A DNA stretch of 62,624 bases, from positions 1 through 62,624 of the forward strand of contig JAGCDO010000011.1 in NCBI GenBank assembly GCA_017651265.1, read 5' to 3'. The notes below the pieces were generated by a model, which saw only the letters and a program-made list of their open reading frames with translations, searched no databases and had not been told where the DNA came from. This stretch comes from Prevotella sp. (GTDB lineage Bacteria; Bacteroidota; Bacteroidia; Bacteroidales; Bacteroidaceae). The translations under genes were made by a program, and so were the position numbers. Position 1 is the first letter of the stretch. Each line of letters begins with the position of its first letter. Positions 1,511 to 35,860 of the stretch are shown one piece after another.

Positions 1511-1547
1511 TTCCCAACGTGGGAATAAAATGTTCCCATGGTGGGAA
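1511..1547. repeat. Two TTCCCA-N3-TGGGAA palindromes at 22-bp pitch
   Basis: Two 15-bp palindromes (1511-1525 and 1533-1547), each 6-3-6, are separated by 7 nt, giving an exact period of 22. The same family recurs as three units at 35802-35860. Function unknown. Confidence 0.85.
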
Positions 1548-1575
1548 TAAGTTGTTTGGTTGTGGTATTCTTGGA

Positions 1576-1613
1576 CCCCGCCCCCCTTGCCAGGACCCCG
1601 CCCCTTAGAGGGG
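1576..1613. repeat. C-rich 20-mer, copy 2, followed by a CCCCT/AGGGG hairpin
   Basis: Exact second copy of the 20-mer found at 1256-1275, followed by a short CCCCT-TAG-AGGGG hairpin (1601-1613). No coding function is suggested. Confidence 0.7.
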
Positions 1614-1707
1614 TGGGGAGTCGAAAGAGCCAACGATACTTCGGGGGTGCGGAGGCGCGGTGGTGCGAGAACAGTATTATGATCCAGCATCTTAGTGGTA
1701 ACCAGCT

Positions 1708-1730
1708 CCCCTCCCATCGCAGGGGAGGGG
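1708..1730. repeat. CCCCTCCC/GGGAGGGG hairpin repeat
   Basis: An 8-bp perfect stem (1708-1715 with 1723-1730) and 7-nt loop. A G-rich stretch of the type GCGGAGGCGCGGTGGTGCGAG lies upstream at about 1646-1667. A similar G-rich stretch precedes the CCCCTCC hairpin at 45570. Confidence 0.65.
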
Positions 1731-1826
1731 TGGCGAAGCAGGGGTGGGGCAATAAAATTTGCGTTTTTTCAAAGACCTAACGGTTTCACGGCAAAAACCC
1801 CTATATAAAGGTGTTTCACGATTTTC

Positions 1827-2035
1827 AGACCTAACCAAAGACCTAACCATAGACCTAACCTAACACCTAACATTTTCCATTTCGGTATAACGAAATTACG
1901 ATTTTACGTTATCATGATATCACGCTATCTCAAAATCTCATTATAACGGCCATTCCCCTCCTCATGGAGGGGTAAGGAGTGACCCCCACTGTTAGGTCTT
2001 AGGTTAGGTCTTAGGTTAGGTGTTGGGTTAGGTCT
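1827..2035. repeat. Inverted arrays of a 12-bp repeat (AGACCTAACC), four copies per arm
   Basis: The left arm has AGACCTAACC-type units starting at 1827, 1839, 1851 and 1863 (the last as ACACCTAACA), a strict 12-bp period. The right arm has the reverse complement GGTTAGGTCT-type units at 1990, 2002, 2014 and 2026, also 12 bp apart. Single outer copies lie at 1773-1782 (plus) and 2091-2100 (minus). The 117-bp loop carries a CCCCTCC hairpin (1955-1972). A transcript of either strand could fold into a long stem. Function unknown. Confidence 0.85.
1955..1972. repeat. CCCCTCC/GGAGGGG hairpin repeat inside the 12-mer inverted array
   Basis: A 7-bp perfect stem (1955-1961 with 1966-1972) with a TCAT loop, within the loop of the large inverted dodecamer structure. 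Confidence 0.75.
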
Positions 2036-2104
2036 TTAGAGCTTGTTTTTCTTGTAAGTTGCTTGATATGAGGTAATTAAGTTTTTACAAGGTTAGGTCT
2101 TGGC

Positions 2105-2185
2105 AAAACATGTGGTTTTGCGTTCTAAAACCATAGGTTTTGGACGCTGAAACCATAGGTTTTAGAGCCTAAAACCATAGGTATT
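2105..2185. repeat. Four 15-bp AAAACC-ATA-GGTTTT palindromes at exact 22-bp pitch
   Basis: Units begin at 2105 (diverged, centre TGT), 2127, 2149 and 2171. Each has two 6-bp arms around a 3-nt centre and is followed by a 7-nt non-conserved spacer. The array ends about 108 bp upstream of the -7 box of iorA. It shares architecture and pitch, but not sequence, with the arrays at 1511-1547 and 35802-35860. Confidence 0.85.
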
Positions 2186-2293
2186 GGAATAAATCAATGA
2201 ATTCCTTTTGTATTTCGCTCACTTATTGGATAAAATCTTCACGCTCGAGCAAACAAATTCATTTGTTTTCTTCTTACTTAATCAGATTTTTCG

Positions 2294-2301
2294 TACCTTT
2301 G
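2294..2301 (+). promoter_or_regulatory. Promoter -7 box of iorA
   Basis: TACCTTTG matches the Bacteroidetes TAnnTTTG consensus and lies 40 bp before the iorA ATG. No good TTTG was found at the usual 20-bp spacing upstream. Confidence 0.6.
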
Positions 2302-2341
2302 CCATCTCTTAGCGAAATATCAATATCAAACATAGATTGTA

Positions 2342-3952
2342 ATGAAAAGACTTTTATTAGGTGACGAGGCAATTGCTCAAGGCGCATTGGATGCTGGTCT
2401 GAGTGGCGTGTATGCATACCCCGGCACCCCCTCAACGGAAATCACGGAGTATATCCAGGAGTCTCCGTTAGCGAAGGAACGCAATGTTCACCGTCGCTGG
2501 TGTACGAATGAGAAGACGGCCATGGAGACTGCCTTAGGTATGTCGTTCATGGGTAAGCGTGCTTTGGTGTGCATGAAGCACGTGGGATTGAATGTGTGTG
2601 CCGACCCGTTTGTGAATGCAGCCATGACAGGTACCAATGGCGGTATCGTGGTTCTGGTGGCCGACGATCCCTCGATGCACTCTTCACAGGATGAGCAGGA
2701 CTCACGTTTCTATGCGAAGTTCGCCATGATTCCTACCTTGGAACCGAGTAATCAGCAGGAGGCCTACGACATGATGGCCTTTGCCTACGATTACTCTGAA
2801 CGTATTCATCTGCCGATTCTGATGCGTGTTACCACCCGTATGGCCCATTCACGTGCTGTGGTAGAGGTGAAGGATGAACCGCGCAAGGAGAACGAGATGA
2901 ACTACAATGCCGTGGCTGCCAACTGGGTGTTGCTGCCCGCCAATGCCCGTCGTAGAAACGATGCGGTTACGAAGCAGCAGGCAGAGCTGGAGCAGGATGC
3001 TGTTGACAGCGCTTTCAATAAGTATATAGATGGTAATGACCACTCCCTGGGTATCATCGCAAGCGGTATCGGTTATAACTACCTGATGGAGAGTTTTGCC
3101 GATGGTAAGTGCCCGTATCCCGTGTTGAAGATCAGTCAGTACCCGCTTCCGAAGACGTTGATCAGAAAGATGACGGCAGCATGCGACCGTGTCTTGGTGA
3201 TTGAGGAAGGACAGCCGTTCATTGAGGATCAGCTTACCGGTATCATGCCGGGCGATGCCGAGATAATCGGTCGTCTGACAGGTGCTCTGCCACGAACAGG
3301 AGAGTTGACACCCGATGCCGTGAAGAAGGCATTAGGTCTGACATCCGGTGAGTCATTTGCTCCTTGCGAAGACGTAGTACCCCGTCCACCGGCATTGTGC
3401 CAGGGTTGCGGTCACCGCGATGTCTATACTGCCCTGAACAAGGTGTTGGAAGAATATCCCAATGCCCGCGTGTTTGGTGATATCGGCTGCTACACCTTAG
3501 GTTTCTTACCGCCGTACCGTGCTATTCACAGTTGTGTTGATATGGGTGCGAGCATCACGATGGCCAAGGGTGCTGCCGATGCAGGTCAGTGGCCAGCCGT
3601 TGCTATTATCGGTGACTCCACCTTTACCCATAGTGGTATGACCGGTTTGCTGGATGCCATCAACGAGAATGCCAACATTACCGTGATTATCAGTGATAAC
3701 CTGACAACAGCCATGACAGGCGGTCAGGACAGTGCAGGAACAAACAAGTTCGAAGCCATTGTTCGTGGCTTAGGACTGAACAACGAGCACCTGAAGGTGG
3801 TAGTTCCGCTGCCGAAGAACATGCCTGAGATCACACAGATTATCCGCGATGAGATCAACTATCAGGGTGTGAGCGTGATTATTCCACGACGTGAGTGTAT
3901 GCAGACACTGCAGCGTCATCTAAAACAAAAGAAAGCTGCCGGGAAGAATTGA
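2342..3952 (+). CDS. iorA: Indolepyruvate:ferredoxin oxidoreductase, alpha subunit
   Basis: Catalyses thiamine-diphosphate-dependent oxidative decarboxylation of aryl pyruvates (indolepyruvate, phenylpyruvate) to aryl-CoA, passing electrons to ferredoxin; the reverse reaction makes aromatic amino acids from aryl acetates. The N-terminal third is the pyrimidine-binding domain (YPGTPSTEITEYI near residue 25). Cys353 and Cys356 (CQGCGHRD) and GDIGCYTLGF followed by GDSTFTHSGM mark the TPP-binding domain. At 536 residues it lacks the C-terminal 8-iron ferredoxin domain found in longer IorA proteins; it ends soon after PRRECMQT. The beta subunit gene follows after 28 bp. The gap holds direct repeats of an aattgaag type. 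Confidence 0.93.
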   Translation: MKRLLLGDEAIAQGALDAGLSGVYAYPGTPSTEITEYIQESPLAKERNVHRRWCTNEKTAMETALGMSFMGKRALVCMKHVGLNVCADPFVNAAMTGTNGGIVVLVADDPSMHSSQDEQDSRFYAKFAMIPTLEPSNQQEAYDMMAFAYDYSERIHLPILMRVTTRMAHSRAVVEVKDEPRKENEMNYNAVAANWVLLPANARRRNDAVTKQQAELEQDAVDSAFNKYIDGNDHSLGIIASGIGYNYLMESFADGKCPYPVLKISQYPLPKTLIRKMTAACDRVLVIEEGQPFIEDQLTGIMPGDAEIIGRLTGALPRTGELTPDAVKKALGLTSGESFAPCEDVVPRPPALCQGCGHRDVYTALNKVLEEYPNARVFGDIGCYTLGFLPPYRAIHSCVDMGASITMAKGAADAGQWPAVAIIGDSTFTHSGMTGLLDAINENANITVIISDNLTTAMTGGQDSAGTNKFEAIVRGLGLNNEHLKVVVPLPKNMPEITQIIRDEINYQGVSVIIPRRECMQTLQRHLKQKKAAGKN

Positions 3953-3980
3953 AGGATTATAAAATTGAAGAATTGAAGTT

Positions 3981-4553
3981 ATGAAAACAGATATCATTCT
4001 TTGTGGAGTAGGAGGCCAAGGCATCCTCTCTATTGCAACCATCATCGGCGAGGCAGCCATGAACGAGAACCTTTATATCAAGCAGGCTGAGGTGCATGGC
4101 ATGTCGCAGCGAGGCGGTGATGTACAGTCGAACCTGCGCATCTCCAGTAATCCTATATACAGCGATCTGATTGCCAAGGGTGGTGCCGACGTGATCATTT
4201 CCATGGAACCGATGGAGGCGCTGCGTTATCTGCCTTATCTCTCTAAGGAGGGTTGGATTATCACATCAAGTACTCCTTTTGTGAATATTCCTAACTATCC
4301 TGAAATGGAGACGATTAAGAGCGATCTTGATAAACTTCCTAACGTCATTGCCCTGGATATTGAACAGCTGGCAAAGGACAACGGTGTTCCGCGCTCAGCC
4401 AACGTGATTCTCTTGGGAGCAGCCCAGAAAGCACTCGGCATTGAATACGATAAACTTGAAGATGCCATCCGCCGCGTGTTCGGTAGAAAAGGTGAAGCGA
4501 TAGTAGAAGCCAATATCAAGGCGCTTGCCCTTGGTAAGGCGGCTCAGAAATAA
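3981..4553 (+). CDS. iorB: Indolepyruvate:ferredoxin oxidoreductase, beta subunit
   Basis: The 190-residue gamma-type domain of 2-oxoacid:ferredoxin oxidoreductases. It begins with the signature GVGGQGILSIATIIGEAA at residues 8-25, and the motif VHGMSQRGGDV near residue 38 is typical of the family. It pairs with the alpha subunit encoded 28 bp upstream, so an iorAB operon is clear. The ATG at 3981 fits the start of the family. Transcription probably ends at the hairpin at 4559-4593, which also serves the convergent lipoprotein gene. Confidence 0.93.
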   Translation: MKTDIILCGVGGQGILSIATIIGEAAMNENLYIKQAEVHGMSQRGGDVQSNLRISSNPIYSDLIAKGGADVIISMEPMEALRYLPYLSKEGWIITSSTPFVNIPNYPEMETIKSDLDKLPNVIALDIEQLAKDNGVPRSANVILLGAAQKALGIEYDKLEDAIRRVFGRKGEAIVEANIKALALGKAAQK

Positions 4554-4558
4554 TTAGT

Positions 4559-4593
4559 GGAGTGTGGAGTAAACACTCCTCACTCCACACTCC
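4559..4593. terminator. Bidirectional hairpin between iorB and a convergent lipoprotein gene
   Basis: GGAGTGTGGAGT (4559-4570) pairs perfectly with ACTCCACACTCC (4582-4593), an 11-nt loop between them. It sits between two convergent stop codons (4553 and 4636). The right arm belongs to an imperfect tandem repeat with units near 4575 and 4602. Confidence 0.6.
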
Positions 4594-4635
4594 TCGAATC
4601 TACTCCTCATTCCACATTCCTCAAGATATACGAAA

Positions 4636-5424
4636 CTACTTCGATATCTTGATGTTCTTCATAAAGTGACTCTTGCCGTCAGCTTCCGGACAATTGATCA
4701 TGATATGACCACATGGTTTGATGTTCGCAATGTTGGTCACACGCTTACCGTTCAGGAAGATCTTCAGGATACCGTTGTCGAACGTTAAGCCGAAGTGATT
4801 CCATTTTGTCTTACTGAACACCTTGTCGAGCTCATCCAGATCGCCATGTATCCAGTTGTCGTCGGTCTTTGCTGCATTCCACTCGATAAGCGTCGGGGTG
4901 AAGGTGATGTTGACAACCTCGTTCTCTTCAGCATCAAAGAGGTACACATGATACCACGCGTCCTTTCCGAAGAGGAACTGGAACTCAGCTGCGAACTTCT
5001 CAGGAAGGTAGGCTTTGCTACCGTTGTTCACCAAGGGGAACAGATTACAGTCGCCACCCGATGGGCAGATATACTTACCGCCTTCAGCCTCGCCAACCTC
5101 AGCGCTACCAGACTTGACATCCCATTGGGAAGGTATCTGTCCAGCCGTTTCTTTATGCTGGTCATCTTCAAAGATCACCGTAGTACCGGTCTTGAAATCA
5201 CCAGAGGCATAAAGGGCATTCAGGTCGAGCTCTTCCACTTTAGCGGGATCAGACCATTCATTAGGATCGGCGGCTGCCTCTTCAGCTTCTGCAGCAGGCG
5301 CACTCTCTTCAACAGCTTCCGCATTCTCTTTCTCAGGATTCTCCTTGTCGGAACCCTTACTACCACAGGCCACCAGCATCAAGAGACCCGTAGCACACAT
5401 CAATGTCAGATAAATCTTTTTCAT
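4636..5424 (-). CDS. Lipoprotein with concanavalin-like/DUF1080-like beta-sandwich domain
   Basis: The N-terminus is a lipoprotein signal with lipobox LLMLVACGS and lipidation at Cys20. An acidic, alanine/glutamate-rich linker follows (about residues 25-60), then a jelly-roll-like domain beginning at VIFEDDQHKETAGQIPSQWD near residue 84. Similar stretches precede OmpA or LamG-like domains in Bacteroidetes envelope proteins, so a periplasmic or surface glycan-binding role is possible but unproven. The gene stands alone, convergent with iorB and divergent from the aminotransferase gene, with its own promoter box at 5466-5473. Confidence 0.8.
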   Translation of the reverse strand: MKKIYLTLMCATGLLMLVACGSKGSDKENPEKENAEAVEESAPAAEAEEAAADPNEWSDPAKVEELDLNALYASGDFKTGTTVIFEDDQHKETAGQIPSQWDVKSGSAEVGEAEGGKYICPSGGDCNLFPLVNNGSKAYLPEKFAAEFQFLFGKDAWYHVYLFDAEENEVVNITFTPTLIEWNAAKTDDNWIHGDLDELDKVFSKTKWNHFGLTFDNGILKIFLNGKRVTNIANIKPCGHIMINCPEADGKSHFMKNIKISK

Positions 5425-5465
5425 GTTGTTTAAGTAATGGATTTATGTTTAGTTATTCTATGCTG

Positions 5466-5473
5466 CAAAGCTA
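5466..5473 (-). promoter_or_regulatory. Promoter -7 box of the lipoprotein gene
   Basis: Reads TAGCTTTG on the minus strand, matching TAnnTTTG, 42 bp upstream of the lipoprotein ATG at 5424. Confidence 0.6.
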
Positions 5474-5513
5474 ACACTTTTTTCCCATATTCACAATACT
5501 ATCGGATAAAAAA

Positions 5514-5545
5514 TTTGGTTATTCCCGCACGATTGTGTAATTTTG
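5514..5545 (+). promoter_or_regulatory. Promoter of the aminotransferase gene (TTTG-N20-TAATTTTG)
   Basis: TTTG at 5514-5517 and TAATTTTG at 5538-5545 are 20 bp apart, a full match to the Bacteroidetes housekeeping promoter. The ATG at 5570 is 25 bp downstream, which argues against a TTG start at 5543 inside the promoter. Confidence 0.75.
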
Positions 5546-5569
5546 CGGAGAATTTCAAGAATCGACATA

Positions 5570-6883
5570 ATGAAATCAACCCCAATTAAGAGAGAAGTGG
5601 TAGATCGTCTCGTTGACGGTCTCGGTATCAAGGACTTCGCCCAGGCTACTATCCGTGAGGTGAAGCAGGTGGCCGCAAAGGCTGAGAAGGAATCCGGTGT
5701 GGAATTTATCAAGATGGAGATGGGTATTCCCGGACTGCCTGCCGCGCAGGTGGGTGTGGATGCGCAGATCAAAGCGTTGCAAGACGGTATTGCTCATAGC
5801 TATCCCGACATACAGGGTGCTCCTGTACTGAAAGAAGCGGCTTCGCAGTTTGTGAAGGCTTTCATCGGTGTGGATATCAAACCTGAGGGATGTGTGCCCG
5901 TTTGCGGCTCCATGCAGGGAACGTTCGCCTCGTTCCTGACCTGCTTACAGGCTGACAAGAAAAAAGACACGGTGTTGTTTATCGACCCAGGTTTCCCTGT
6001 GCAGAAGATGCAGCTGCAGGTGATGGGAGGGAAGTACGAGACCTTCGATGTGTATGACTACCGTGGAGAGAAGTTGCACGACAAGCTGGTGTCGTACTTG
6101 GATAAAGGAAATATCTGTGCCATCGTCTATAGTAATCCTAACAACCCGTCGTGGATCTGTTTCAATGAGGATGAGCTGAAAACGATTGGTGAGCTGGCTA
6201 CGCAATATGATGTGATTGTGATGGAGGACCTGGCTTACTTCGCCATGGATTTCCGCAAGAACCTGAGTGTGCCGTTCGAACCTCCGTATCAGGCTACCGT
6301 GGCACGCTATACGGATAACTACATGTTGCTGATCAGTGGTTCCAAGGCATTCAGCTATGCTGGTGAACGCATTGGTGTGACCTGTATCTCCGACAAGTTG
6401 TTCCACCGTCATTATCCCGACTTGGCAGAACGCTACGAAGGACTGCCGTTCGGTCCGGTGTTCTCTACCCGAATGCTTTATGCGTTATCATCAGGTACCA
6501 GTCATAGTGCCCAGTATGCCTTGGCAGCCATGCTGAAGGCAGCTACCGACGGAAGCTACGACTTCCGTAAGGAGATCAGCGTTTATGGAAAACGTGCTCA
6601 TCTGCTGAAAGAGATTTTCTGTAAGCACGGTTTCCATGTGGTGTACGACAAAGATTTGGATGAGCCGATTGCCGATGGCTTCTATTTCACCATCGGTTAT
6701 CCGGGAATGACAAGCGGTGAACTGGCCCATGAACTGATGTATTATGGTGTCAGCGCCATCTGTCTGATCACCACAGGCAGTCATCAGGAAGGTCTGCGTG
6801 TGTGTACTTCATTTATTGAGGACCACCAGTATGCGCTCTTGGATGAGCGCATGGCCATCTTTGAGGAGAATAACAAGCGGTAG
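5570..6883 (+). CDS. PLP-dependent class I/II aminotransferase
   Basis: A 437-residue fold-type I aminotransferase. Visible marks are the substrate/cofactor segment SNPNNPSW, the VMEDLAYF aspartate region, and GSKAFSYAGERIGV, whose lysine should form the Schiff base with pyridoxal phosphate. Substrate cannot be read from sequence. Its closeness to iorAB, which uses aryl pyruvates made by transamination, makes an aromatic or branched-chain substrate plausible, but the two units have separate promoters. The ATG at 5570 is preferred because the promoter -7 box ends at 5545. The stop codon TAG (6881-6883) abuts the stop of the convergent PqqD gene with no gap. Confidence 0.9.
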   Translation: MKSTPIKREVVDRLVDGLGIKDFAQATIREVKQVAAKAEKESGVEFIKMEMGIPGLPAAQVGVDAQIKALQDGIAHSYPDIQGAPVLKEAASQFVKAFIGVDIKPEGCVPVCGSMQGTFASFLTCLQADKKKDTVLFIDPGFPVQKMQLQVMGGKYETFDVYDYRGEKLHDKLVSYLDKGNICAIVYSNPNNPSWICFNEDELKTIGELATQYDVIVMEDLAYFAMDFRKNLSVPFEPPYQATVARYTDNYMLLISGSKAFSYAGERIGVTCISDKLFHRHYPDLAERYEGLPFGPVFSTRMLYALSSGTSHSAQYALAAMLKAATDGSYDFRKEISVYGKRAHLLKEIFCKHGFHVVYDKDLDEPIADGFYFTIGYPGMTSGELAHELMYYGVSAICLITTGSHQEGLRVCTSFIEDHQYALLDERMAIFEENNKR

Positions 6884-7156
6884 TTATTCTTCAACAATCC
6901 CTGCTTCAATCCATTGCTGGGCAAGCGTTTTACAGTCAGCGAGGGCTGTATTACGCTCCACTTCGTATTCCTCAAGCAGGAGGTCGGCCATGTCTTCAAC
7001 AGTAAAGCTCTCACGCTGCTGAACGATCTTCCAGAGATATGCCGATGACTCGTTCATGCTGATGATATTGCTGAAGTCAATATTCTCTTTTCCTTCAGCC
7101 ACGATAATCTGCTCACCACAGACGTTACGTAGGTTGAATCCTTTCTTTGCTTTCAT
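6884..7156 (-). CDS. PqqD-like peptide-binding protein
   Basis: A 90-residue protein with the PqqD / RiPP-recognition-element pattern: an N-terminal beta part (KKGFNLRNVCGEQIIVAEG), then MNESSAYLWKIV and a C-terminal helical part with YEVERNTALADCKTLAQQW. Such domains bind leader peptides in ribosomally made peptide pathways (PQQ, lasso peptides, sactipeptides). It is last in a minus-strand trio with an S26-type peptidase and an HPr-kinase-like protein, 9 bp behind the peptidase gene. No precursor peptide or radical SAM partner is visible nearby, so its partner is unknown. Confidence 0.8.
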   Translation of the reverse strand: MKAKKGFNLRNVCGEQIIVAEGKENIDFSNIISMNESSAYLWKIVQQRESFTVEDMADLLLEEYEVERNTALADCKTLAQQWIEAGIVEE

Positions 7157-7165
7157 ATTCTTTTC

Positions 7166-7651
7166 TTATTTGGTTTTAAACAGTTTCAGCCATATCCTTC
7201 GGTAGAAGGCCAGTAGGTAACGACGAATAGGGAAGAGGCGGGTCCAGAACCAGGAATAGGTACGCCACTTCCAACCATCGGTACGGTCGAGTGTCTCCCT
7301 TCCTTTGCGATAGAAACCAATCACGGCGCCTTTGACATCGCCAATGGAACAGTGCTCCTCCCTCAGGTTCCCGTCACCACGAAGAATCACATGGTCACCC
7401 TGAATGGCAATGATTCGATGCAGCACAAAATGTTTCTCTCCAATCTCCGCCAACACCGGATCGCCTACCTTGGGGTTTACCGCTTTCTTCAGTAATGCCT
7501 TATCACGTCCATCCTCCAGGAACGGTCGCATGCTATATCCTTTCAGTCGCAGGGTGACGGTATGACCTTCATCCAACAACTTCACGATCTCGGGTATCAG
7601 TATGGCATTGGCATACTGAACCTCCTTGATCTGGATATGCTCGTTTGACAT
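7166..7651 (-). CDS. S24/S26-family signal-peptidase-like protein
   Basis: A 161-residue protein with the serine motif RLKGYSMRPFL (Ser40) and a downstream VLHRIIAIQGD. The general base position is occupied by His78, as in the S26B (SipW/Sec11-like) branch rather than the Lys of bacterial LepB. The C-terminus is rich in Trp, Arg and Lys (RTYSWFWTRLFPIRRYLLAFYRRIWL) and may bind or enter the membrane. It lies between the PqqD gene and the HPr-kinase-like gene in one direction, so the three probably act together, perhaps to process a peptide. The substrate is unknown. Confidence 0.8.
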   Translation of the reverse strand: MSNEHIQIKEVQYANAILIPEIVKLLDEGHTVTLRLKGYSMRPFLEDGRDKALLKKAVNPKVGDPVLAEIGEKHFVLHRIIAIQGDHVILRGDGNLREEHCSIGDVKGAVIGFYRKGRETLDRTDGWKWRTYSWFWTRLFPIRRYLLAFYRRIWLKLFKTK

Positions 7652-7675
7652 GATAAAACCTATATACTATATTGT

Positions 7676-8578
7676 TTAATTCTGTTTCGTTACGGCAGCA
7701 TGACAGACACGTGCCGCTTCTTCGTTGGGCAGACAGTGTAACGTGTAGATGCCCACTAACTCCACCACCTTGGTTACCGTGTTACAGATGGCATTGAAGA
7801 TATCCTTGTCCCACTTCATGGTGGAACAGGAGGGGAGGAAAGAGGCGAAGGCTTCGATAGGGGGCAACTTCTCAATACTGTTTTCTTGTGCCCTGTCGAT
7901 ACGTGTGATGGCTCCTAATGGCGCTTTTACCTGACGGTAGCAGGGTGTCTTACCACTCCAAGGACTGCCGTAGATGAATACTTGATTATCGATAACCCGC
8001 ACGATGGGATTATCGTCGTTCATCAGATCACAGTTCTCTATATATCGCAGCCACATGCTCACCTGTGTACTCTTACCTGTTCCGCTCTTCGCGATGAACG
8101 CATAGCCTTTACCATCACATCTCACCAATGAGGCATGTATCATCAATGTCTGGTGGAAACTGCCTGCAAAGGAGAAGATCAGCATCAGTGCGTTGTTCAG
8201 ACCAAAGCACCGCATGTTATAGTTCCCGTTCAAGGCACAACGGCAATCACTGAAATCCTTGTTGGCACGCAGCAGACAGCAATCGCCTCCATTGATATCC
8301 TTGATGATGAACTGGTAGCCACCGTCATCTACTTCATCTACGATAGTATCGCCATTTCCCGTGTCGAACTTCCTGATGCGTTCCCGATGCTCTTTAGCTA
8401 CAGGTTTCAGGTTGTCGTCAACGACCAACTGGAAAAACAGATCCTTCAGTTCTGAAGGGTCTATCCTGAATGGTTCGAATGATGGAAGAAGACGCATTCC
8501 GTTATAACGGGAATGCTCGAAGACGATGCGTATCTGGTGTTCAGCAATGCTGAAGACATGTGTGCTCCCTTCTGTCAT
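7676..8578 (-). CDS. HPr-kinase/PEPCK-like ATP-binding protein
   Basis: A 300-residue protein with a clear P-loop (AKSGTGKST, residues 163-171), preceded by HASLV (His148) and followed by NDDNP near residue 187, the pattern of HPr-kinase-like serine kinases and PEP carboxykinase folds. Stand-alone members occur in lasso-peptide and related RiPP clusters, where they phosphorylate a precursor. Here it is encoded directly upstream of the peptidase and PqqD genes. The N-terminal 150 residues show no recognised domain. Kinase activity and target are inferred from family only. Confidence 0.75.
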   Translation of the reverse strand: MTEGSTHVFSIAEHQIRIVFEHSRYNGMRLLPSFEPFRIDPSELKDLFFQLVVDDNLKPVAKEHRERIRKFDTGNGDTIVDEVDDGGYQFIIKDINGGDCCLLRANKDFSDCRCALNGNYNMRCFGLNNALMLIFSFAGSFHQTLMIHASLVRCDGKGYAFIAKSGTGKSTQVSMWLRYIENCDLMNDDNPIVRVIDNQVFIYGSPWSGKTPCYRQVKAPLGAITRIDRAQENSIEKLPPIEAFASFLPSCSTMKWDKDIFNAICNTVTKVVELVGIYTLHCLPNEEAARVCHAAVTKQN

Positions 8579-8584
8579 GAGCGG

Positions 8585-9052: not shown

Positions 9053-9059
9053 TTTTCAA

Positions 9060-9923: not shown

Positions 9924-9947
9924 GGTCATTTGATTGGTAAGCAGATG

Positions 9948-23603: not shown

Positions 23604-23635
23604 AGTTGACAGTTGACAGTTGATAGTTGACAGTT
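23604..23635. repeat. Heptamer array AGTTGA(C/T), four copies plus partial, purM side of cassette
   Basis: Units at 23604, 23611, 23618 and 23625, then AGTT to 23635. It lies between the stop of the four-helix-bundle gene and the start of purM, and is inverted relative to the array at 24001-24028. Confidence 0.85.
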
Positions 23636-28292: not shown

Positions 28293-29256
28293 TGTTTCTT
28301 TCTTTATTTTGTTCTTTGTTATTCTTGTCATACGACTCATATGCGTTCACAATCCTCGTAACGAGTTTGTGGCGCACGATATCCTTCTTGTTCATCTCGA
28401 TAAACGAGATTCCTTCCACGCCTTTTAACACCCGCATCGCTTCACGAAGACCGCTACGCGCTTCGTTGGGCAGGTCAACCTGGGTCATATCACCTGTGAT
28501 GATCATCTTGGTGTTCCATCCCATACGGGTGAGGAACATGCGGATCTGGGCAGGGGTGGTATTCTGGGCCTCGTCGAGAATCACGATGGCATCACTCAGC
28601 GTTCTGCCTCGCATGAATGCCAAGGGCGCAATCTGTATGATGTGCTTCTCCATCATATCCTGCAGCTTCACAGCCGGAATCATATCCTCCAGTGCATCGT
28701 ACAGCGGCTGAAGATAGGGATCGATCTTATCCTTCATGTCACCAGGCAGGAAACCTAATTTCTCACCGGCTTCCACGGCAGGACGACTCAGGATGATCTT
28801 CTTGGCCTGCTTTTCCTTGAAAGCCTTCACGGCCAGGGCAATACTTAGGTAGGTCTTACCCGTACCCGCAGGACCTACAGCAAAGATCATGTCATCTTTG
28901 TCGAAGGCATCAATCAGTTTCTGCTGGTTCTCGCTTCTGCTTTTGATGGCCCTGCCTGAGATGGTATAGGCCACTACACCCTTCACCGATTCGTCTTTGG
29001 TCTTCTTTCCGTTAACGATATCCAGGATGTCTTCTTCACTGATACGGTTGAACTGCAGCACATGCTTCCGCATGATTTCTATCTGTTCCCCGAAGATTCT
29101 CAGTTGCTCATCATCGCCCAAAACACGTATCACATTGTCACGGGCCACGATTCTCAGCTTGGGGTATAAGGCCTTGATCATCTGCAGATGACTGTTGCCT
29201 ACACCATAGAATACAACGGGGTCTATATCTTCAAGAACAATATGTTTCTCTGTCAC
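28270..29256 (-). CDS. phoH: PhoH-like ATPase
   Basis: A 328-residue protein with the PhoH P-loop [19 protein letters not shown], the DEAQN Walker B motif ([11 protein letters not shown]) and [10 protein letters not shown]. The N-terminal KH-like segment (residues about 20-80) is typical of the YbeZ branch, which works with the RNase YbeY in RNA metabolism. No ybeY gene is seen in the window. It heads the long minus-strand run. Its last 23 bp overlap the purC start, and the tail ([16 protein letters not shown]) is low-complexity. Confidence 0.93.
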
Positions 29257-29272
29257 TACGCAAATTTTTCTG

Positions 29273-29280
29273 CAAAGTTA
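29273..29280 (-). promoter_or_regulatory. Candidate -7 box of phoH (proximal)
   Basis: TAACTTTG on the minus strand, 17 bp upstream of the phoH ATG. A second identical box, gcAAAGTTA on the plus strand, is at 29358-29365, so two start sites are possible. Confidence 0.5.
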
Positions 29281-29357
29281 CGAAAAAACGAGAGCAGAAC
29301 AAAAAGAATTCATTCTTTTTTTATGCCGAGTGCATTGTAAGTTCGCGATTTTATTCG

Positions 29358-29365
29358 CAAAGTTA
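29358..29365 (-). promoter_or_regulatory. Candidate -7 box of phoH (distal)
   Basis: TAACTTTG on the minus strand, 102 bp upstream of phoH, identical to the proximal box and followed by the same CGAAAAA context on the plus strand, which suggests a local duplication. Confidence 0.4.
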
Positions 29366-29489
29366 CGAAAAACCTGAGTAAGCGAGAAGAAAATATAGTT
29401 GTAAAATATGTTAAAGAATTGCCTTCTCATGCAAGATTTCAATATTTCATCAATTATAGAATTAAAACGTTTAATTTTCAACAAACAAG

Positions 29490-29945
29490 ATGAAACAGAC
29501 GATTATCTTATGGATGTGCGCTGCGGTTCTGTCTGTTGCAGGACTGACCAGCTGTAGTGATAGTGACGATGACGATGTCATACTCGTGAAGGATTACACC
29601 AACTACAAGAGTGCCATCGTTGGAACTTGGTATTTGGCAAGTCAATCCAGTGGGTGGGGAGGTATAACCGACTACAATGAGGGTGAAATCATGGTTACAT
29701 TCACAAATAAGGGGAAGGTAAAGGTTGTCAATCATAGAGAAGACCAAAGGCCCATCCCAACAAGTACATTTACGTACTCGTTTAAGAAAATTGAAAAATC
29801 CATATTTACAGGTGAGCCAAGTGTCGTCATTTCTTTTGACGACTCCAGTTTCTATTATTCCATCGACTTTGATCAAGGAGTTCTATATTTTTCAGCAGAA
29901 GCCTATGATGGTGGTGGGTATACATTAAAGAAAGCGTCAAAATAA
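29490..29945 (+). CDS. Small lipoprotein, lipocalin-like
   Basis: A 151-residue protein with a lipoprotein signal and lipobox (LSVAGLTSC, Cys22), followed by an acidic run SDSDDDDV. The mature part begins IVGTWYLASQSSGW and continues as alternating strands ending YTLKKASK, the general look of Bacteroidetes lipocalin-like lipoproteins. Function unknown. It is a single gene between phoH (divergent) and a DUF5715 gene; a 22-bp-period array and a hairpin follow its stop. Confidence 0.75.
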   Translation: MKQTIILWMCAAVLSVAGLTSCSDSDDDDVILVKDYTNYKSAIVGTWYLASQSSGWGGITDYNEGEIMVTFTNKGKVKVVNHREDQRPIPTSTFTYSFKKIEKSIFTGEPSVVISFDDSSFYYSIDFDQGVLYFSAEAYDGGGYTLKKASK

Positions 29946-29960
29946 CTTTAAGACACTAAA

Positions 29961-30070
29961 GAAGGCTGGTTAGACATAGTTAGAAGGCTGGTTAGTGTGT
30001 GTTAGAAGGCTGATAACGATGGGTTATCAGCCTGATTTGTATAAGATAGAAGGCCAGTTTCTTGGTAATT
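29961..30070. repeat. Five units of a 22-bp-period array (GAAGGCTGGTTAG type)
   Basis: Units begin at 29961, 29983, 30005, 30027 (diverged) and 30049; all steps are exactly 22 bp. Units 1 and 2 share GAAGGCTGGTTAG, unit 3 has GAAGGCTGATAAC and unit 5 GAAGGCC. The hairpin 30007-30033 spans units 3 and 4, and unit 5 includes the -33 element of the next gene. Function unknown. Confidence 0.75.
30007..30033 (+). terminator. Hairpin terminator after the small lipoprotein gene
   Basis: AGGCTGATAAC (30007-30017) pairs perfectly with GTTATCAGCCT (30023-30033) around a 5-nt loop, 62 bp after the stop, with GATTTGT behind it. It forms part of the 22-bp-period array. Confidence 0.6.
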
Positions 30071-30092
30071 GTTGATAATTGTTGTATCTTTG
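30062..30092 (+). promoter_or_regulatory. Promoter of the DUF5715 gene (TTG-N20-TATCTTTG)
   Basis: TTG at 30062-30064 and TATCTTTG at 30085-30092 are 20 bp apart; the ATG is 23 bp downstream. The -33 element falls in the last unit of the 22-bp array. Confidence 0.65.
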
Positions 30093-30115
30093 CACAGAGT
30101 TATTGAAAATGCATC

Positions 30116-31009
30116 ATGTTGAAAGTTAAAATAACAAAGAATAATTATCTGGCCGGCTTTGCTGCGGTCGTCATGATATTGGCACTCGTTCGCTGTATTC
30201 ATCCCAAGATTGCCGAGGGAACTGGTAAGGAATTGGCTGGGGTGGAGCAGAAGGACTCGCTCTTGACGGGAGAGGCAAGGATTGAGAAGCAAGAAGCAAA
30301 GAATGAGAAGCAAGAGGCAAGAGGCAAGAAGCAAGAGAATAGTACTGAGATACAAGAGAGTAGAACTGAGAAGCAAAAGGAGAAAGGACCAGTGATGTCA
30401 TTGGCTCGTTCGAAGTTTATCAACAGCGACGGCTCTATTGTCAAGCACAGAATCCTTAGTGTACCGCATTACCTGGAAGCGTTCCCCGACAGTCAGCCTG
30501 TACAGGAACGTGCAGCTGCAAGATGGGGCGTCAAGCCAGTGAACAACCGCGAGGACGCCGAGGCGAGAAAGAAGGAACTGGTATATATGGGATCATCACC
30601 TTATTATCATGTGGATGTACTGCACAGAAGTGTTCCTTACTTGGTTCCCAGAGCTGCCGTACTACTCAGCGATATAGGCCGAGCCTATTACGACAGTCTG
30701 CAGATCAAGGGTGTTCCCCTGCATCAGTTCATCGTGACGAGTGTCCTCCGCACAAAGGAAGATGTGGCGAAGCTGAGGAACTATAACAGAAACGCCACAG
30801 AGAACAGCTGTCATCTCTACGGCACCACCTTCGACATCTGTTATAATCGTTACAAGACTGTCCAGCCTCCAGGTGAGAAACGCAGGATGGTGCAAAACGA
30901 TACGCTGAAATGGGTGTTGGCTGAAGTACTGAACGATATGCGTAAGCAGGGTAGGTGCTATATTAAATATGAGGTAAAGCAGAGTTGCTTCCATATTACG
31001 ACAAGGTAA
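30116..31009 (+). CDS. DUF5715 family exported protein, M15-peptidase-like
   Basis: A 297-residue protein with an N-terminal membrane segment (residues 9-27), a charged low-complexity stretch of KQEA/KQEN units (about residues 57-90), and a C-terminal domain with VLRTKEDVAKLRNYNRNATENSCHLYG, TTFDICYNRY and CFHITT. The His/Asp/His spacing resembles M15/YcbK peptidoglycan hydrolases, so a cell-wall role is possible but not shown. The low-complexity part is encoded by short repeats of a gaagcaagaa type. The stop is followed 3 bp later by heptamer repeats. Confidence 0.75.
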   Translation: MLKVKITKNNYLAGFAAVVMILALVRCIHPKIAEGTGKELAGVEQKDSLLTGEARIEKQEAKNEKQEARGKKQENSTEIQESRTEKQKEKGPVMSLARSKFINSDGSIVKHRILSVPHYLEAFPDSQPVQERAAARWGVKPVNNREDAEARKKELVYMGSSPYYHVDVLHRSVPYLVPRAAVLLSDIGRAYYDSLQIKGVPLHQFIVTSVLRTKEDVAKLRNYNRNATENSCHLYGTTFDICYNRYKTVQPPGEKRRMVQNDTLKWVLAEVLNDMRKQGRCYIKYEVKQSCFHITTR

Positions 31010-31012
31010 GAC

Positions 31013-31077
31013 AGTTGATAGTTCTTCGCATGGCGAAGCGGCAAAGACGAGCGGACAGTTGATAGTTGATAGTTGAC
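31013..31077. repeat. Heptamer repeats AGTTGA(T/C) around a small hairpin
   Basis: One and a half units at 31013-31023 and three units at 31057-31077, in the same orientation, flank a CTTCGC-ATG-GCGAAG hairpin (31024-31038). This is the repeat family seen at 23604, 24001 and 61615. It lies between the DUF5715 stop and the tRNA promoter. Confidence 0.75.
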
Positions 31078-31134
31078 AAATGTTAAATAGGAATATTTTC
31101 TGTCGTTTCCTTCTTCTTTCTTCGTGAAAAGTGT

Positions 31135-31142
31135 TACCTTTG
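31135..31142 (+). promoter_or_regulatory. Promoter -7 box of the tRNA-Thr/tRNA-Gly/dnaB region
   Basis: TACCTTTG matches TAnnTTTG, 18 bp before the first tRNA base. The -33 element is weak. Confidence 0.6.
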
Positions 31143-31159
31143 CATCCGCATTTGAAAAT

Positions 31160-31232
<73 letters not shown>

Positions 31233-31282
31233 CTTTTCGAATCACGCTATCAAGCACGCTTTCAAACCATTTTAGTTTCGTT

Positions 31283-31355
31283 GCGGTAATAGCTCAGTTG
31301 GTAGAGCATTGGCTTCCCAAGCCGAGGGTCGCGGGTTCGAGTCCCGTTTACCGCT
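31283..31355 (+). tRNA. tRNA-Gly (anticodon CCC)
   Basis: A 73-nt cloverleaf: acceptor GCGGTAA/TTACCGC, D arm AGCTCAGTTGGTAGAGCA, anticodon stem TTGGC/GCCGA with loop TTCCCAA (anticodon CCC, reads GGG), and T arm GCGGGTTCGAGTCCCG. CCA is not encoded. dnaB begins 25 bp downstream. Confidence 0.95.
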
Positions 31356-31380
31356 CCTTGCACTTAACCATCCATTCATT

Positions 31381-32865
31381 ATGCCGGAAAAACGAACCAC
31401 ACGCGCATCTTTAGATACCTCGTACGGACATCTTCAACCACAGGCGCTCGATCTGGAAAGAGCGGTTGTAGGAGCACTGATGATTGACAAGGACGCATTC
31501 TCCATTGTCAGCGAGATCATCCGTGCAGAATCGTTCTATGACCCCCGTCATCAGAAAATCTACAAGGCCATTCAGACACTGAACATGGATGAGCGTCCGG
31601 TGGACTTCATGACCGTGATAGAGGAGTTGAAGCGGGATGGTGCGCTGGAGGAAATCGGCGGACCAACGTATATCGTGGAGCTGTCTTCCCAAGTGGCTTC
31701 TTCTGCGCATATCGAGTATCACGCCCGCGTGTTGGCTCAGAAACATCTTGCGCGTCAGCTCATCAGCTTCGCCAGCGTGATTGAGACGAAGGCATTCGAT
31801 GAGACCGTTGATGTGGATGATCTGATGCAGGAGGCTGAATCATCGCTGTTCGAGCTTTCTCAGAAGAATATGCGCCAGGAGTACACGCAGATCGATCCTG
31901 TGCTGACTCAGGCTGTGGAGATCTTGCAGAAAGCAGCGGCCAACACCTCTGGTCTTACGGGTATCCCCACCGGCTTCACACGTTTGGACGATATCACAGC
32001 AGGATGGCAGGCTTCCGACTTAGTGATCATCGCCGGTCGTCCGGCCATGGGTAAGACGTCTTTCGCCTTGTCATTGGCCAAGAATATTGCGGTTGACTAT
32101 CAGTATCCTATCGGTTTCTTCTCGTTGGAAATGAACAACGTGCAGCTGGTTAACCGTCTGATGTCGAACGTTTGCGAGATCTCCGGTAAGAAGATCCTGA
32201 ACGGTCAGCTGGACGAAGAGGAGTGGAAACGTCTCGACCGCAATATCCGTAAGCTGCAAGGTGCACCTATTTATATTGATGATACGCCCGGAATGAGTAT
32301 CTTCGAGCTGCGTTCGAAGGCCAGACGACTGGTGCGTGAAAAGGGTGTGAAGGTGATCATGATCGACTACCTGCAGCTGATGAATGCCAACGGTGCCAAG
32401 TTCGGTAGTCGTCAGGAAGAGGTGAGCACGATCAGTCGTTCGCTGAAGGGCTTGGCCAAGGAGCTGAATATTCCCATTCTGGCGCTCTCACAGCTGAACC
32501 GTAGCGTGGAGAACCGTGATTCCAACGATGGTAAACGACCGCAGTTGAGCGACCTTCGTGAATCGGGTGCCATCGAGCAGGATGCGGATATGGTGCTCTT
32601 CGTACATCGTCCTGAATACTACCATATCCTACAGGATGAGAAAGGTAATGATCTTCGTGGTATGGCGCAGATTATCATTGCCAAGCACAGAAAGGGTGCA
32701 ACGGGTGATGTGCTGCTGAACTTCCGTGGTGAGTTTACACGTTTCCAGAACCCAGAGGATGCTATCATACCACCATCTGGATCGGGTGGAGGAGAGATCA
32801 TCGGCAGTAAGCTGAATGACGAAGATGTTCCCTTCGCACCGCCTCCATCGCCGATGCCGTTCTAA
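31381..32865 (+). CDS. dnaB: Replicative DNA helicase
   Basis: The hexameric helicase of the replication fork, 494 residues. The N-terminal domain (LERAVVGALMIDKDAFSIVS) is followed by the RecA-like motor with Walker A GRPAMGKTSFALSLA, Walker B VIMIDYLQLM and the arginine/QLNRSVENR motifs. ATG 31381 is preferred; the open frame reaches back into tRNA-Gly, but only this start matches the family. The C-terminus ends in a Pro/Gly-rich tail. Its stop overlaps the uvrA stop by 4 bp on the other strand. Confidence 0.96.
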   Translation: MPEKRTTRASLDTSYGHLQPQALDLERAVVGALMIDKDAFSIVSEIIRAESFYDPRHQKIYKAIQTLNMDERPVDFMTVIEELKRDGALEEIGGPTYIVELSSQVASSAHIEYHARVLAQKHLARQLISFASVIETKAFDETVDVDDLMQEAESSLFELSQKNMRQEYTQIDPVLTQAVEILQKAAANTSGLTGIPTGFTRLDDITAGWQASDLVIIAGRPAMGKTSFALSLAKNIAVDYQYPIGFFSLEMNNVQLVNRLMSNVCEISGKKILNGQLDEEEWKRLDRNIRKLQGAPIYIDDTPGMSIFELRSKARRLVREKGVKVIMIDYLQLMNANGAKFGSRQEEVSTISRSLKGLAKELNIPILALSQLNRSVENRDSNDGKRPQLSDLRESGAIEQDADMVLFVHRPEYYHILQDEKGNDLRGMAQIIIAKHRKGATGDVLLNFRGEFTRFQNPEDAIIPPSGSGGGEIIGSKLNDEDVPFAPPPSPMPF

Positions 32866-35690
32866 TCAGTAAGTTTTTCTGAAAGGTATTTGCCTGTGAT
32901 GCTTTCATGACAGGCACATAACTGTTCTGGTGTTCCTGCGAATACCAGGTTACCTCCGCGGTCGCCGCCTTCAGGACCTAAATCAATGACGTAATCAGCA
33001 CATTTGATCACATCCAGGTTATGCTCGATGACAAGGATGGAATGACCGCGTTCAATGAGTGCGTCAAAGGCACGAAGGAGTCGTTGGATATCATGGAAAT
33101 GCAATCCCGTGGTGGGCTCATCGAAAATGAATAGGGTAGGCTCCGATTTCTCTTGTCCCATGAAATAGGCTAACTTCACGCGCTGGTTCTCACCTCCTGA
33201 TAACGTGGAAGAACTCTGACCGAGCTTGATGTACCCAAGACCTACATCGTACAAAGGTTTCAGACGGTCGACAATGGCTTTCTGACCGTTCTCACTGAAG
33301 AACGTAATGGCTTCTGCAACGGTCATGCACAAGATGTCGTAGATACTCTTCCCGGCAAACAGTACATCCAGGATATCTTTCTTGAAACGCTTACCATGAC
33401 AGGCTTCACAGGTTAACTCCAGATCGGCCATAAACTGCATCTCCACGGTAATCACACCCGTTCCCTTACACTCCTCACAACGACCGCCATCGGCATTGAA
33501 CGAGAAATACTGGGGTGTGAAGCCCATCTGCTTGGACAAGGGTTGTTCGGCATACAGCTGGCGGATGGCGTCGTAGGCCTTGACATAGGTGGCTGGGTTA
33601 CTGCGGGAACTCTTACCGATAGGGTTCTGATCAACCATCTCCACATGCTTCACACGCTGCCAGTCACCTTCCAGCGAGATGTATTCTCCGGGCTGGTCGG
33701 CCACTTCATTCATGTGTCGTTTGAGGGCAGGGTAGAGGATGCCTTTTACCAATGATGACTTACCACTGCCTGAAACGCCTGTAACTGCGGTCATTACGTT
33801 CAGTGGGAAGCGCACATCAATACCCCTTAAGTTATTCATCCTGCATCCTTTCAGCTCGATAGCCAGGTTCCAAGGACGGCGGGTCTGCGGTACTGGAATG
33901 CTTAGCTGCCGGGTGAGATACTGCATGGTGTAGGATTGCTTGGAAGCTGAGGATGACGAAGGGGTAGGGGGACCTTGGTAAACGACCTCTCCACCCAGTT
34001 CTCCGGCATCAGGACCGATATCGACCAGTTCATCAGCAGAGCGGATGATTTCCTCATCATGCTCCACAACAATCACGGTGTTGCCCAACGACTGCAGATC
34101 TTTCAACACCTGAATCAGCTTACCGGTATCTCTTGAATGTAAACCAATACTGGGTTCATCAAGGATATAAAGGGAACCAACCAGACTGGAACCAAGCGAT
34201 GTGGTGAGATTGATGCGCTGACTTTCACCGCCTGAAAGACTATTAGAGGCTCTATTTAAGGTTAGATAGCTAAGTCCTACATTTACAAGGAATTGTAATC
34301 TGTTATTGATTTCCAAAAGTAAGCGCTTGCCAGTCATCGTATCATGCTCATCAAGCTGCAGGTTGTCGAACCATTCCTTCAGTTTCCCGATGGGCATCTC
34401 CACGAGGTTTGTCATGCTCATCCCGTTGATCTTCACGTAATCAGTTTCTTTCTTCAAACGGGTACCATGACACTCCGGACATACTGTTTTACCGCGGTAA
34501 CGACTCAACATAACCCGGTACTGGATCTTATACTGATTCTCTCTCAGCATCTGGAAGAAGGCATCGATGGAAACACGTTCGTGCACATCGTGTGTGTCAC
34601 TCGGCAGACCGTGCCAGAGCATGTCTTTCTGAGCGCGTGTCAATCGGTAATAAGGCTCGAAGATGGGGAAGTCGTCTTTCACGGCTCGGCGGCAGAACTC
34701 ATCCTGCCACATCTTCATCTTGTCTCCATGCCAACACTGTACACATCCTTCGTACACGCTGAGCGAGGTGTTGGGGATGACCAATCGTTCATCAATACCA
34801 ATGATGCTACCGAATCCTTCGCAGGTAGGACAGGCACCAAGGGGGGAGTTGAAGGAGAACATGTTTTCGTTAGGCTCCTCGAACTTCATACCATCGGCCT
34901 CGTAACGGGTAGAGAAATCGTAGCTGATGTTACTTGGTAAAAACATTAAACGACAAGCGCCATCTCCTTCATACAGAGCAGTTTCTGCAGAGTCGATAAG
35001 TCGTGAGATGACATCTTTTTCGGTGTCAGCCGACAAGCGGTCGATCAAGAGCCACATCTGGGTTTCACGACTCTCATTCATGACTTGTTCCAGTTGGTTG
35101 ACAGCGTTCTCATCCTCGCTGAATTCATCAATACGATGGAACTCTCCATGGTAGAACATACGCACATATCCTTGCTGCAGATACATCTCAAGCTGCCGTT
35201 TCAACGTACGGTTTTCATGCATATGTACCGGAGCCATCACCACGAATTTCGTGCCTTTACCGTATTGCTTCATACAGTTCACGATGTCTTCCGTGGTGTG
35301 TTTTTTTACTTCAACACCGGAAATAGGAGAGTATGTCCTGCCAATACGGGCAAAAAGAAGTCGTAGATAGTCATAGATCTCAGTGGTTGTACCCACAGTA
35401 CTGCGTGGATTTCGCGCAATCACTTTCTGTTCAATGGCAATGGCAGGAGGCAATCCCTTGATGTAATCGCAGGCTGGTTTTGACATTCTGCCTAAGAACT
35501 GACGGGCATAAGCGCTCAGGGATTCTACATAACGGCGCTGACCCTCAGCATACAACGTATCGAAAGCCAATGATGATTTACCGCTTCCTGATACGCCTGT
35601 AACGACAATCAGTTTGTTCCTGGGAATCTGTAACGAAATTCCCTTCAGATTGTTCACCCGGGCATTCTTGATCTCTATATAATTACTCAT
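32862..35690 (-). CDS. uvrA: Excinuclease ABC subunit A
   Basis: Damage-sensing ATPase of nucleotide excision repair, 942 residues. It has two ABC ATPase halves, each with [12 protein letters not shown] and an LSGGE-QR signature, and zinc-binding Cys pairs ([27 protein letters not shown] with [12 protein letters not shown]). The ATG at 35690 ([12 protein letters not shown]) is chosen over an upstream ATG at 35789, since the family begins there and the -7 box at 35715-35722 lies between the two. The gene is convergent with dnaB, and the two stop codons overlap. Confidence 0.96.
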
Positions 35691-35714
35691 CTGCGATTCT
35701 TGTGATTGAATTTG

Positions 35715-35722
35715 CAAATATA
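35715..35722 (-). promoter_or_regulatory. Promoter -7 box of uvrA
   Basis: TATATTTG on the minus strand matches TAnnTTTG, 25 bp upstream of the uvrA ATG. No LexA-like palindrome was noticed. It supports the start at 35690. Confidence 0.55.
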
Positions 35723-35801
35723 CGCATTTTCTCGCAAACAAGTACCACTTTCTCACTTTTTCTATCATCCCTTCGTTTTTTTTCATCATCTGAATGAATC
35801 A

Positions 35802-35860
35802 TTCCCACGTTGGGAACAATTTATTCCCATGTTGGGAACATTTTATTCCCATGTTGGAAA
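35802..35860. repeat. Three TTCCCA-N3-TGGGAA palindromes at exact 22-bp pitch
   Basis: Units at 35802-35816, 35824-35838 and 35846-35860 (last arm degenerate, TGGAAA), each 15 bp with a 7-nt AT-rich spacer. The same family is present as two units at 1511-1547. The array lies upstream of both uvrA and the second RpoD-like gene. Confidence 0.85.

Follow-up and report, generated by a model that had tools for sequence, protein, structure and literature searches.

Sequence-diverse repeat arrays of constant 22-bp pitch in Prevotella, with a candidate link to VapE-like primase-helicase genes

Introduction

The closest described counterparts of the repeats treated here are the iteron origins of plasmids and phage satellites, such as R6K, RK2, the Staphylococcus aureus pathogenicity islands (SaPIs) and other phage-inducible chromosomal islands (PICIs), where element-specific, helix-phased short repeats lie beside a primase-helicase or Rep gene and two repeat sets frame a centre (PMC4980987, PMC6092414, PMC7581432). 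Plasmid iterons measure 17-22 bp, and a shift by half a helical turn abolishes cooperativity (PMC4980987). PICI origins consist of an AT-rich region flanked by two iteron sets (PMC6092414), and the SaPI Rep helicase binds iterons adjoining its gene (PMC7581432). We describe arrays of short repeats, different in sequence and alike in their 22-bp pitch, in a 62,624-base stretch of Prevotella DNA (contig C8 of the 3.16 Mb draft genome G000; hereafter the window) and elsewhere in the genus. They share with iteron origins the phased repeats, the neighbouring primase-helicase gene and the framing repeat sets, and differ in lying on the chromosome and in having many solitary copies per genome, of which some are in frame in genes. 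Numbers with G, C and L are our handles for genomes, contigs and loci.

Rickettsia palindromic elements are palindromic repeats tolerated both between genes and in frame in protein genes. The Prevotella repeats occur in the same two settings; they differ in being tandem 22-bp units, in including several families that are not clearly palindromic, and in having a candidate partner gene. Miniature inverted-repeat transposable elements have long inverted repeats and are present or absent between relatives. Both properties are found in an 857-bp island described below, the inverted repeats of which are, however, built of 11-bp units, and which copies the region upstream of a VapE-like gene. PARCELs (PMC2996958) are dyad-symmetric tandem DNA coding in frame, described there as arrays of a 25-residue motif in proteins, whereas the present arrays mostly have three units and lie between genes. 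Repetitive extragenic palindromic (REP) sequences and their RAYT transposases (PMC3733652) likewise combine short dispersed palindromes with a candidate partner gene; the Prevotella arrays lack the REP tag, lack a Y1_Tnp match in G000 and keep a fixed 22-bp pitch. No earlier report of 22-bp arrays in Prevotella was found in the literature searched, mostly without subscription papers.

One pitch in unrelated sequences

The initial annotation of the window had suggested a single mechanism behind the common period of its unlike arrays, an idea that would fail if lag 22 did not stand out from neighbouring lags across the genome. To compare lags without regard to sequence, 1,635,444 bases of the genus, filed under 17 genome labels, were scanned for 66-bp stretches that are two-thirds identical to themselves at a given lag. 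The scan returned 55 arrays at lag 22, far above the 13 at lag 21 and 2 at lag 23, contrary to the refuting outcome; lags 19, 20 and 24-40 gave 0-2 each, and the shorter lags 15, 16, 17 and 18 gave 28, 5, 3 and 11. This sample was in part chosen for its arrays (the window, C1 and the end of C27 of G000, C4 of G110 and two stretches of G115). Block-shuffled sequence of the genus gave none. Stretches from 14 other genomes of the genus, not chosen for arrays, gave 15 at lag 22, none at lags 19-21 and two at lag 23. A spaced sample of 400 kb from G016, likewise taken without regard to arrays, gave ten at lag 22, one at lag 21 and none at 16-20 or 23-33, with one stretch placed on an acyltransferase; as G016 is a single contig, the arrays are not an artefact of draft assembly. 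In 259,102 bases from other families of the order, none occurred at lag 22 and two at lag 21, and 150,000 bases of E. coli K-12 gave none at lag 22. The idea of one mechanism behind a fixed pitch thus holds good throughout the genus, and for lag 22 specifically.

Array families are genome-specific. Units alike at 16 or more of 22 positions were found in 43 of 352 pairs within one genome label versus 2 of 1,133 pairs between labels, G000 and G110 sharing one label and some of their arrays being orthologous. Palindromy is merely a tendency, 16 of the 55 lag-22 arrays being dyad-symmetric at p<=0.05 where about three are expected; the 15-bp unit of 6-3-6 palindromic form plus a 7-nt spacer, as first proposed, describes the TTCCCA and AAAACC arrays of the window and is not general. 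Dyads every 11 bp were not counted as evidence, because any 22-bp period that contains one dyad entails them. Arrays of 11-bp repeats accompany the 22-bp arrays. Flanking genes show orientations close to baseline (30 tandem, 10 convergent, 8 divergent, 3 arrays in open reading frames (ORFs) and 4 at edges), and arrays are rarer close to gene starts than close to gene ends (5 of 46 versus 19 of 50 within 100 bp). One palindromic family, CTTATTNNNNAATAAG, has a pitch of 21 and not 22 (L053:6346, L069:537, L149:2121).

VapE-like genes beside the arrays

One family of the window, with the unit TTCCCA-N3-TGGGAA, was followed through 111 related loci. The most recurrent ORF cluster in these loci, present in 13, is that of a VapE-like protein, and a DUF6078 protein recurs in 9. 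The former combines a VapE-like domain (PF05272) and a BT4734-like N-terminal domain with matches to PrimPol and phage helicase/primase families. A remote relative in the PDB, 7pds (E 7e-9), is named after VapE; a structure prediction was unusable (pLDDT 48). Sixteen loci combine a VapE match with a TTCCCA array; 13 of these have the array 189-382 bp upstream of the gene's estimated start, and the other three are partial or doubtful matches. L097 equals L288 in sequence and L210 is an orthologue, and the figure is therefore 11 of 14 when each is counted once.

An unbiased set consisted of 19 VapE-upstream regions from six genomes, picked by gene position alone. At a threshold of 0.66, ten of these contain a lag-22 array, as compared with 116 of 2,000 random pieces, and five contain an 11-bp array. 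Upstream of other genes, lag-22 arrays occur in 16 of 212 regions where 250 bp or more is free DNA and in 14 of 168 where 400 bp is. By eye, the ten array-bearing regions represent about seven unit families. A second measure, applied to 32 VapE-upstream regions, found lag-22 arrays in 24 (all 13 of the TTCCCA set and 11 of the 19 unbiased regions), 11-bp arrays in 13 and both in 12, while among 1,500 random pieces the numbers were 82, 63 and 56. The search for a gene that accompanies the arrays, an idea of the initial annotation, thus led to the VapE-like PrimPol-helicase, with arrays just upstream of it. In L109 and L410 an 11-bp set is followed by 22-bp arrays and then by an inverted 11-bp set, up to the VapE gene. 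Two features of iteron origins were accordingly found, namely repeats at helical spacing (lags 22 and 11) and an adjacent initiator/helicase gene, the latter except in G016 and at solitary arrays.

DUF6078 (PF19555) may be part of the VapE module. It lies alongside VapE in 11 of the 16 loci with VapE and a TTCCCA array. In a sample of the genus, TTCCCA pairs occur in 19 of 100 genomes, and DUF6078 is found in 17 of these 19 versus, by subtraction, 43 of the 81 others.

Solitary arrays as probable copies of VapE-upstream DNA

Many arrays stand apart from any VapE-like gene, and these solitary arrays look like gene-less copies of the VapE-upstream regions of their own lineage, as sequence matches suggest. 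The matches were taken at a cut-off of 34 bits, and also at 30 bits; one of the eight G000/G110 regions, L210, was array-chosen, and the arrays sampled in G000/G110 include four pairs orthologous between the two genomes. At 34 bits, 18 of 24 arrays from G000/G110 match VapE-upstream regions of their own lineage, versus 5 of 200 random pieces. Across genomes, arrays of other genomes match G000/G110 regions in 0 of 31 cases, and G000/G110 arrays match G115 regions in 1 of 24; at 30 bits these become 2 of 31 and 3 of 24. Of six G115 arrays, four at 34 bits and five at 30 bits match VapE-upstream regions of G115, and none matches those of G000/G110. The G115 array within the gene CobB has its best match in the region upstream of the VapE gene at C10 (37.9 bits), and the array within the acyltransferase gene in that at C14 (64.6 bits).

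The likeness extends beyond the arrays. Further VapE-upstream sequence, 44-537 bp in length, lies within 700 bp of 17 of the 30 TTCCCA arrays of the own genome, versus 1 of 60 random pieces; some of the 17 are matches to other repeat families, because only TTCCCA sites were masked. The region upstream of the VapE gene at G000:C41 (L408) has, between inverted CAACATACACG sets, AAACC and TTCCCA repeats and, by eye, AGGCTGATTACC-like 22-mers reminiscent of the AAGGCTG family of the window. It aligns over 607 columns, at 74%, with a gene-less island in L281 (G000:C1), through a promoter-like stretch as far as ATGAAGGTAA, the expected gene start. The island site measures 857 bp in G000 and 109 bp in the near relative G110, where the island is absent.

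Anatomy and spread of the TTCCCA family

TTCCCA pairs occur 84 times in G000, and still 84 times when gaps of 5-9 or 1-13 nt are permitted; the gap is 7 nt in every pair among the matches listed, and a reversed control pattern gave no pairs in that genome. In the window and the 111 loci, steps between neighbouring sites are 22 in 224 of 228 cases, 21 in two and 100 in two. The 114 arrays of this set comprise 17 with two units, 84 with three, 9 with four and 4 with five; singles are unrepresented, because the loci were fetched for having a pair. In G000 the 32 entries, one array having been entered twice via overlapping loci, have 2 to 6 units, 13 of them three and 11 two. In the 111-locus set, conservation extends five bases (AATTA) past the outer arms and then drops to about zero, both in genes and between them, and less sharply in G000. 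The modal element is therefore a discrete module of about 69 bp. Possible target-site duplications number 18 of 111 against 12.6 +/- 3.1 for k=5, 4 against 3.6 for k=6 and 3 against 0.8 +/- 0.9 for k=7.

A spanning copy in G000 was available for 7 of 20 G110 arrays. Between these orthologous arrays the arms show 0 changes in 252 positions, the centre triplets 10 in 63, the spacers 10 in 98 and the flanks 193 in 3,308; one of the seven comparisons, L285 with L207 (126 columns), probably pairs paralogues. In two of the seven, one copy has a complete 22-bp unit more than the other. The two genomes are 93-97% alike over their longest collinear blocks.

Public genome contigs yielded at least 111 stretches with TTCCCA pairs, and 76 of the 80 titled among the matches listed belong to Prevotella, Xylanibacter or Prevotellaceae, including named isolates. 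In a family-wide sample, pairs occur in 2 of 121 genomes, namely G000 and one of another genus. Plasmid and phage collections queried with the 68-nt array consensus gave no match. In viral contigs there were five hits, four of which are one ORF with the array in frame. This ORF has 83 residues (L157:2143-2394, L158:5514-5765, L160:3781-4032, L161:2081-2332); an integrase is encoded nearby in L158 and L161, and a reverse transcriptase in L158.

Arrays inside genes

The arrays were initially described as intergenic. This is correct for the four in the window, all of which sit between long ORFs, and does not hold generally, as 17 of the 114 TTCCCA arrays are flanked on each side by more than 60 codons of open frame. 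The genes concerned include GH106, GH92, CobB, an ABC ATPase, an acyltransferase and others. Depending on the frame, the array encodes FPxWE, IPxxG or SQxGN; as the peptide varies with the frame, the DNA is what is kept.

At two coding sites, the CobB linker and an acyltransferase loop, different species carry different families, mostly of three 22-bp units. The CobB linker could be read in 32 orthologues, with one further locus unreadable; 11 have an array at lag 22 (3 having been selected for TTCCCA), one at 21 and one at 18, and 19 have none. For the acyltransferase loop, 9 of 32 have one at lag 22 (4 chosen) and the rest are below threshold, with four loci unreadable; by eye, L247, L054 and L074 have decayed arrays. 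CobB linkers with an array measure 177 nt in 8 of 11 cases, the others being 198, 165 and, for L170, not measurable by the anchor; those without are mostly 165-186 nt. An insertion of 66 bp into CobB is unsupported, linkers with arrays being hardly longer than linkers without. In 18 pieces of CobB from other genera, some of which cover the linker partly, 22 is never the best lag.

In several genomes (L194-L199) the CobB frame is broken in two at the linker, the site of arrays elsewhere, and in another genus (L406) CobB contains in-frame heptamer repeats (TCAACTG...). A long inverted repeat (AACAGGGGGACGGTTCTTTTGTTAC...) lies beside the acyltransferase coding array at L074:2700-2802, at the expected place of the third unit. 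A repeat of about 30 bp (like CGCTCGGCTTTGCCGCTTCGC...) appears by eye to interrupt arrays (L054 near 5393, L081 near 3268), and at three places G000 and G110 differ in whether they have a repeat of this kind.

Interpretation

On balance we lean toward reading these repeats as iteron-like arrays that belong to VapE-like (PrimPol plus helicase) modules and have spread as copies without the gene, in some cases in frame within coding sequence. Each module would have its own unit sequence, with units exactly two helical turns (22 bp) apart and, in the best examples, framed by inverted sets of 11-bp repeats. An oligomer of the initiator-helicase reading one face of the DNA would set the pitch and leave the sequence to drift freely with each protein. 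A protein with a fixed ruler had been among the mechanisms first suggested and fits best of these, the presumed reader being an initiator-helicase and not the nuclease or integrase then named; on this reading, the nucleoid protein and the hairpin RNA also suggested would not be needed. The window arrays would be solitary copies, those at 1511-2185 with further VapE-upstream sequence and the other two bare. We infer that VapE binds the arrays and that these serve as an origin or, alternatively, as an operator for autoregulation; the mode by which the copies move is likewise inferred. The data suggest scattered sites resembling replication starts, in which spacing rather than sequence is conserved. 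As a variant of iteron-initiator systems, it stands out by its chromosomal copy number, its spread into coding sequence and its constant pitch across the genus. A bolder version is put forward tentatively, as one we rather doubt: that each Prevotella chromosome carries about 100 dispersed iteron arrays, read by its resident VapE PrimPol-helicases and serving as solo origins or initiator decoys, with units that drift between species and a fixed two-turn ruler, written even into metabolic coding sequence.

Several observations weigh against the iteron reading. G016, with its ten arrays, has an array upstream of none of its three VapE genes, and no DUF6078 was found there; the arrays of this genome are outside the explanation, and another reader is needed or one was lost. 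In G020, none of three sampled VapE-upstream regions reaches the threshold (best 0.57), while a fourth VapE gene (C51), excluded from the sample as already known, has TTCCCA repeats upstream. Within the upstream counts, the lag-22 match of L415 is a harmonic of an 11-bp array, and L413 and L414 are near copies. Thirteen of the 30 own TTCCCA arrays, including that at 35802 of the window, have no further VapE-upstream sequence, and the arrays in CobB and the acyltransferase are not obviously origin copies. The arm conservation is a biased figure, since the loci were preselected for exact arrays and 7 of 20 were compared. SaPI origins lie downstream of rep, whereas the Prevotella arrays lie upstream of VapE.

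The arrays could instead be operators, at which a repressor or VapE itself binds phased sites controlling VapE, with the solitary copies as degenerate duplicates of the control region. Their position 189-382 bp upstream of the start, adjoining a promoter-like stretch that the gene-less island retains, speaks for this. At the sampled density (55 in 1.64 Mb), if it holds, a genome would have about 100 arrays, which is many for one operator, however, and several 22-bp and 11-bp sets flank each other in the best examples, as in satellite origins; we judge this alternative unlikely. We would give no better prospects to short autonomous selfish elements of fixed 22-bp architecture, comparable to Rickettsia palindromic elements, for which DNA upstream of VapE is merely a frequent landing site. 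Such elements would account for a discrete module whose conservation ends 5 nt past the outer TTCCCA dyads, for the three units in 84 of 114 arrays, for in-frame copies in genes and an array in a phage gene, and for different families at one coding site across species. They would not account for the 44-537 bp shared with VapE-upstream regions beyond the array at 17 of 30 own arrays, and no clear target-site duplication was seen.

The remaining explanations are far less probable. Slippage and template switching might yield tandem palindromes without any reader, and the unit number of two among the seven arrays aligned between G000 and G110 does differ, by exactly 22 bp; there is no known reason why this should favour 22 over 20, 21, 23 or 24 in unrelated sequences, or positions upstream of one gene family, and we regard it as very improbable. 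Movement by RAYT (Y1_Tnp) transposases, as for REP elements, would be in line with dispersed short palindromes, some within genes. It was rejected as most unlikely: neither G000 (84 pairs) nor G020 (13 pairs) has a PF01797 match, the flank consensus has AATTA on either side of TTCCCA arrays and no GTAG/CGTC tag, and many families are not clearly palindromic. CRISPR was likewise rejected on spacer length, no search for cas genes being involved: spacers are 7 nt in every pair listed, as compared with an expected 25-60 bp or so, which bears out the first assessment that they are too short.

With the iteron reading comes a concrete candidate for the reader of a large class of bacterial repeats, one so diverse in sequence that searches by sequence cannot unite it, since the spacing alone is common to its members. 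If VapE proteins read the arrays, these genomes contain many scattered initiator sites, with a bearing on replication, on competition between satellites and, through the in-frame arrays, on gene evolution. Lag 22 also provides a simple search key for such modules elsewhere.

Features of the window

The four 22-bp arrays of the window, different in sequence as first described, were read directly (Table 1), and their three families recur in the genome. The TTCCCA family of the first array is also found upstream of the VapE genes at G000:C26 and G000:C41, and positions 2113-2184 are 79% like the array upstream of the latter. The AAAACC family has one further occurrence in the genome, at pitch 22 although 18-26 were permitted in the search, and the AAGGCTG family has four more places, the search pattern itself having imposed the pitch. 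Similarity of the AAGGCTG array to a VapE-upstream region of G110 is weak (26.9 bits), and a search of the flanks of this array and of that at 35802 found no VapE-upstream sequence.

Table 1. Repeat arrays of the window and their likeness to VapE-upstream regions
Feature	Position	Strand	Remarks
TTCCCA array	1511..1547	.	2 units TTCCCA-N3-TGGGAA, 7-nt spacer, 22-bp pitch; sequence read directly
Short-period array (AGACCTAACC...)	1827..1876	+	88% over 50 bp to stretch upstream of VapE at G000:C26, 5e-11
Inverted short-period array (TTAGGTCTTAGG...) and neighbour	1990..2112	-	73% over 124 columns to VapE-upstream region of G000:C26
AAACCATAGGTTT array	2105..2185	.	AAAACC-ATA-GGTTTT, 7-nt spacers, 22-bp pitch; first unit imperfect
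AAGGCTG array	29960..30069	+	five 22-mers by eye, AGAAGGCTGGTTAG..., last two decayed; non-palindromic
TTCCCA array	35802..35860	.	3 units, third with one mismatch; between divergent UvrA-like (minus) and sigma-70 (plus) genes

A search of the window with Rfam at the gathering threshold gave nothing beyond two tRNAs. A separate periodic class is present in the window as 7-bp tandem repeats at 23604-23635 and 61611-61642.

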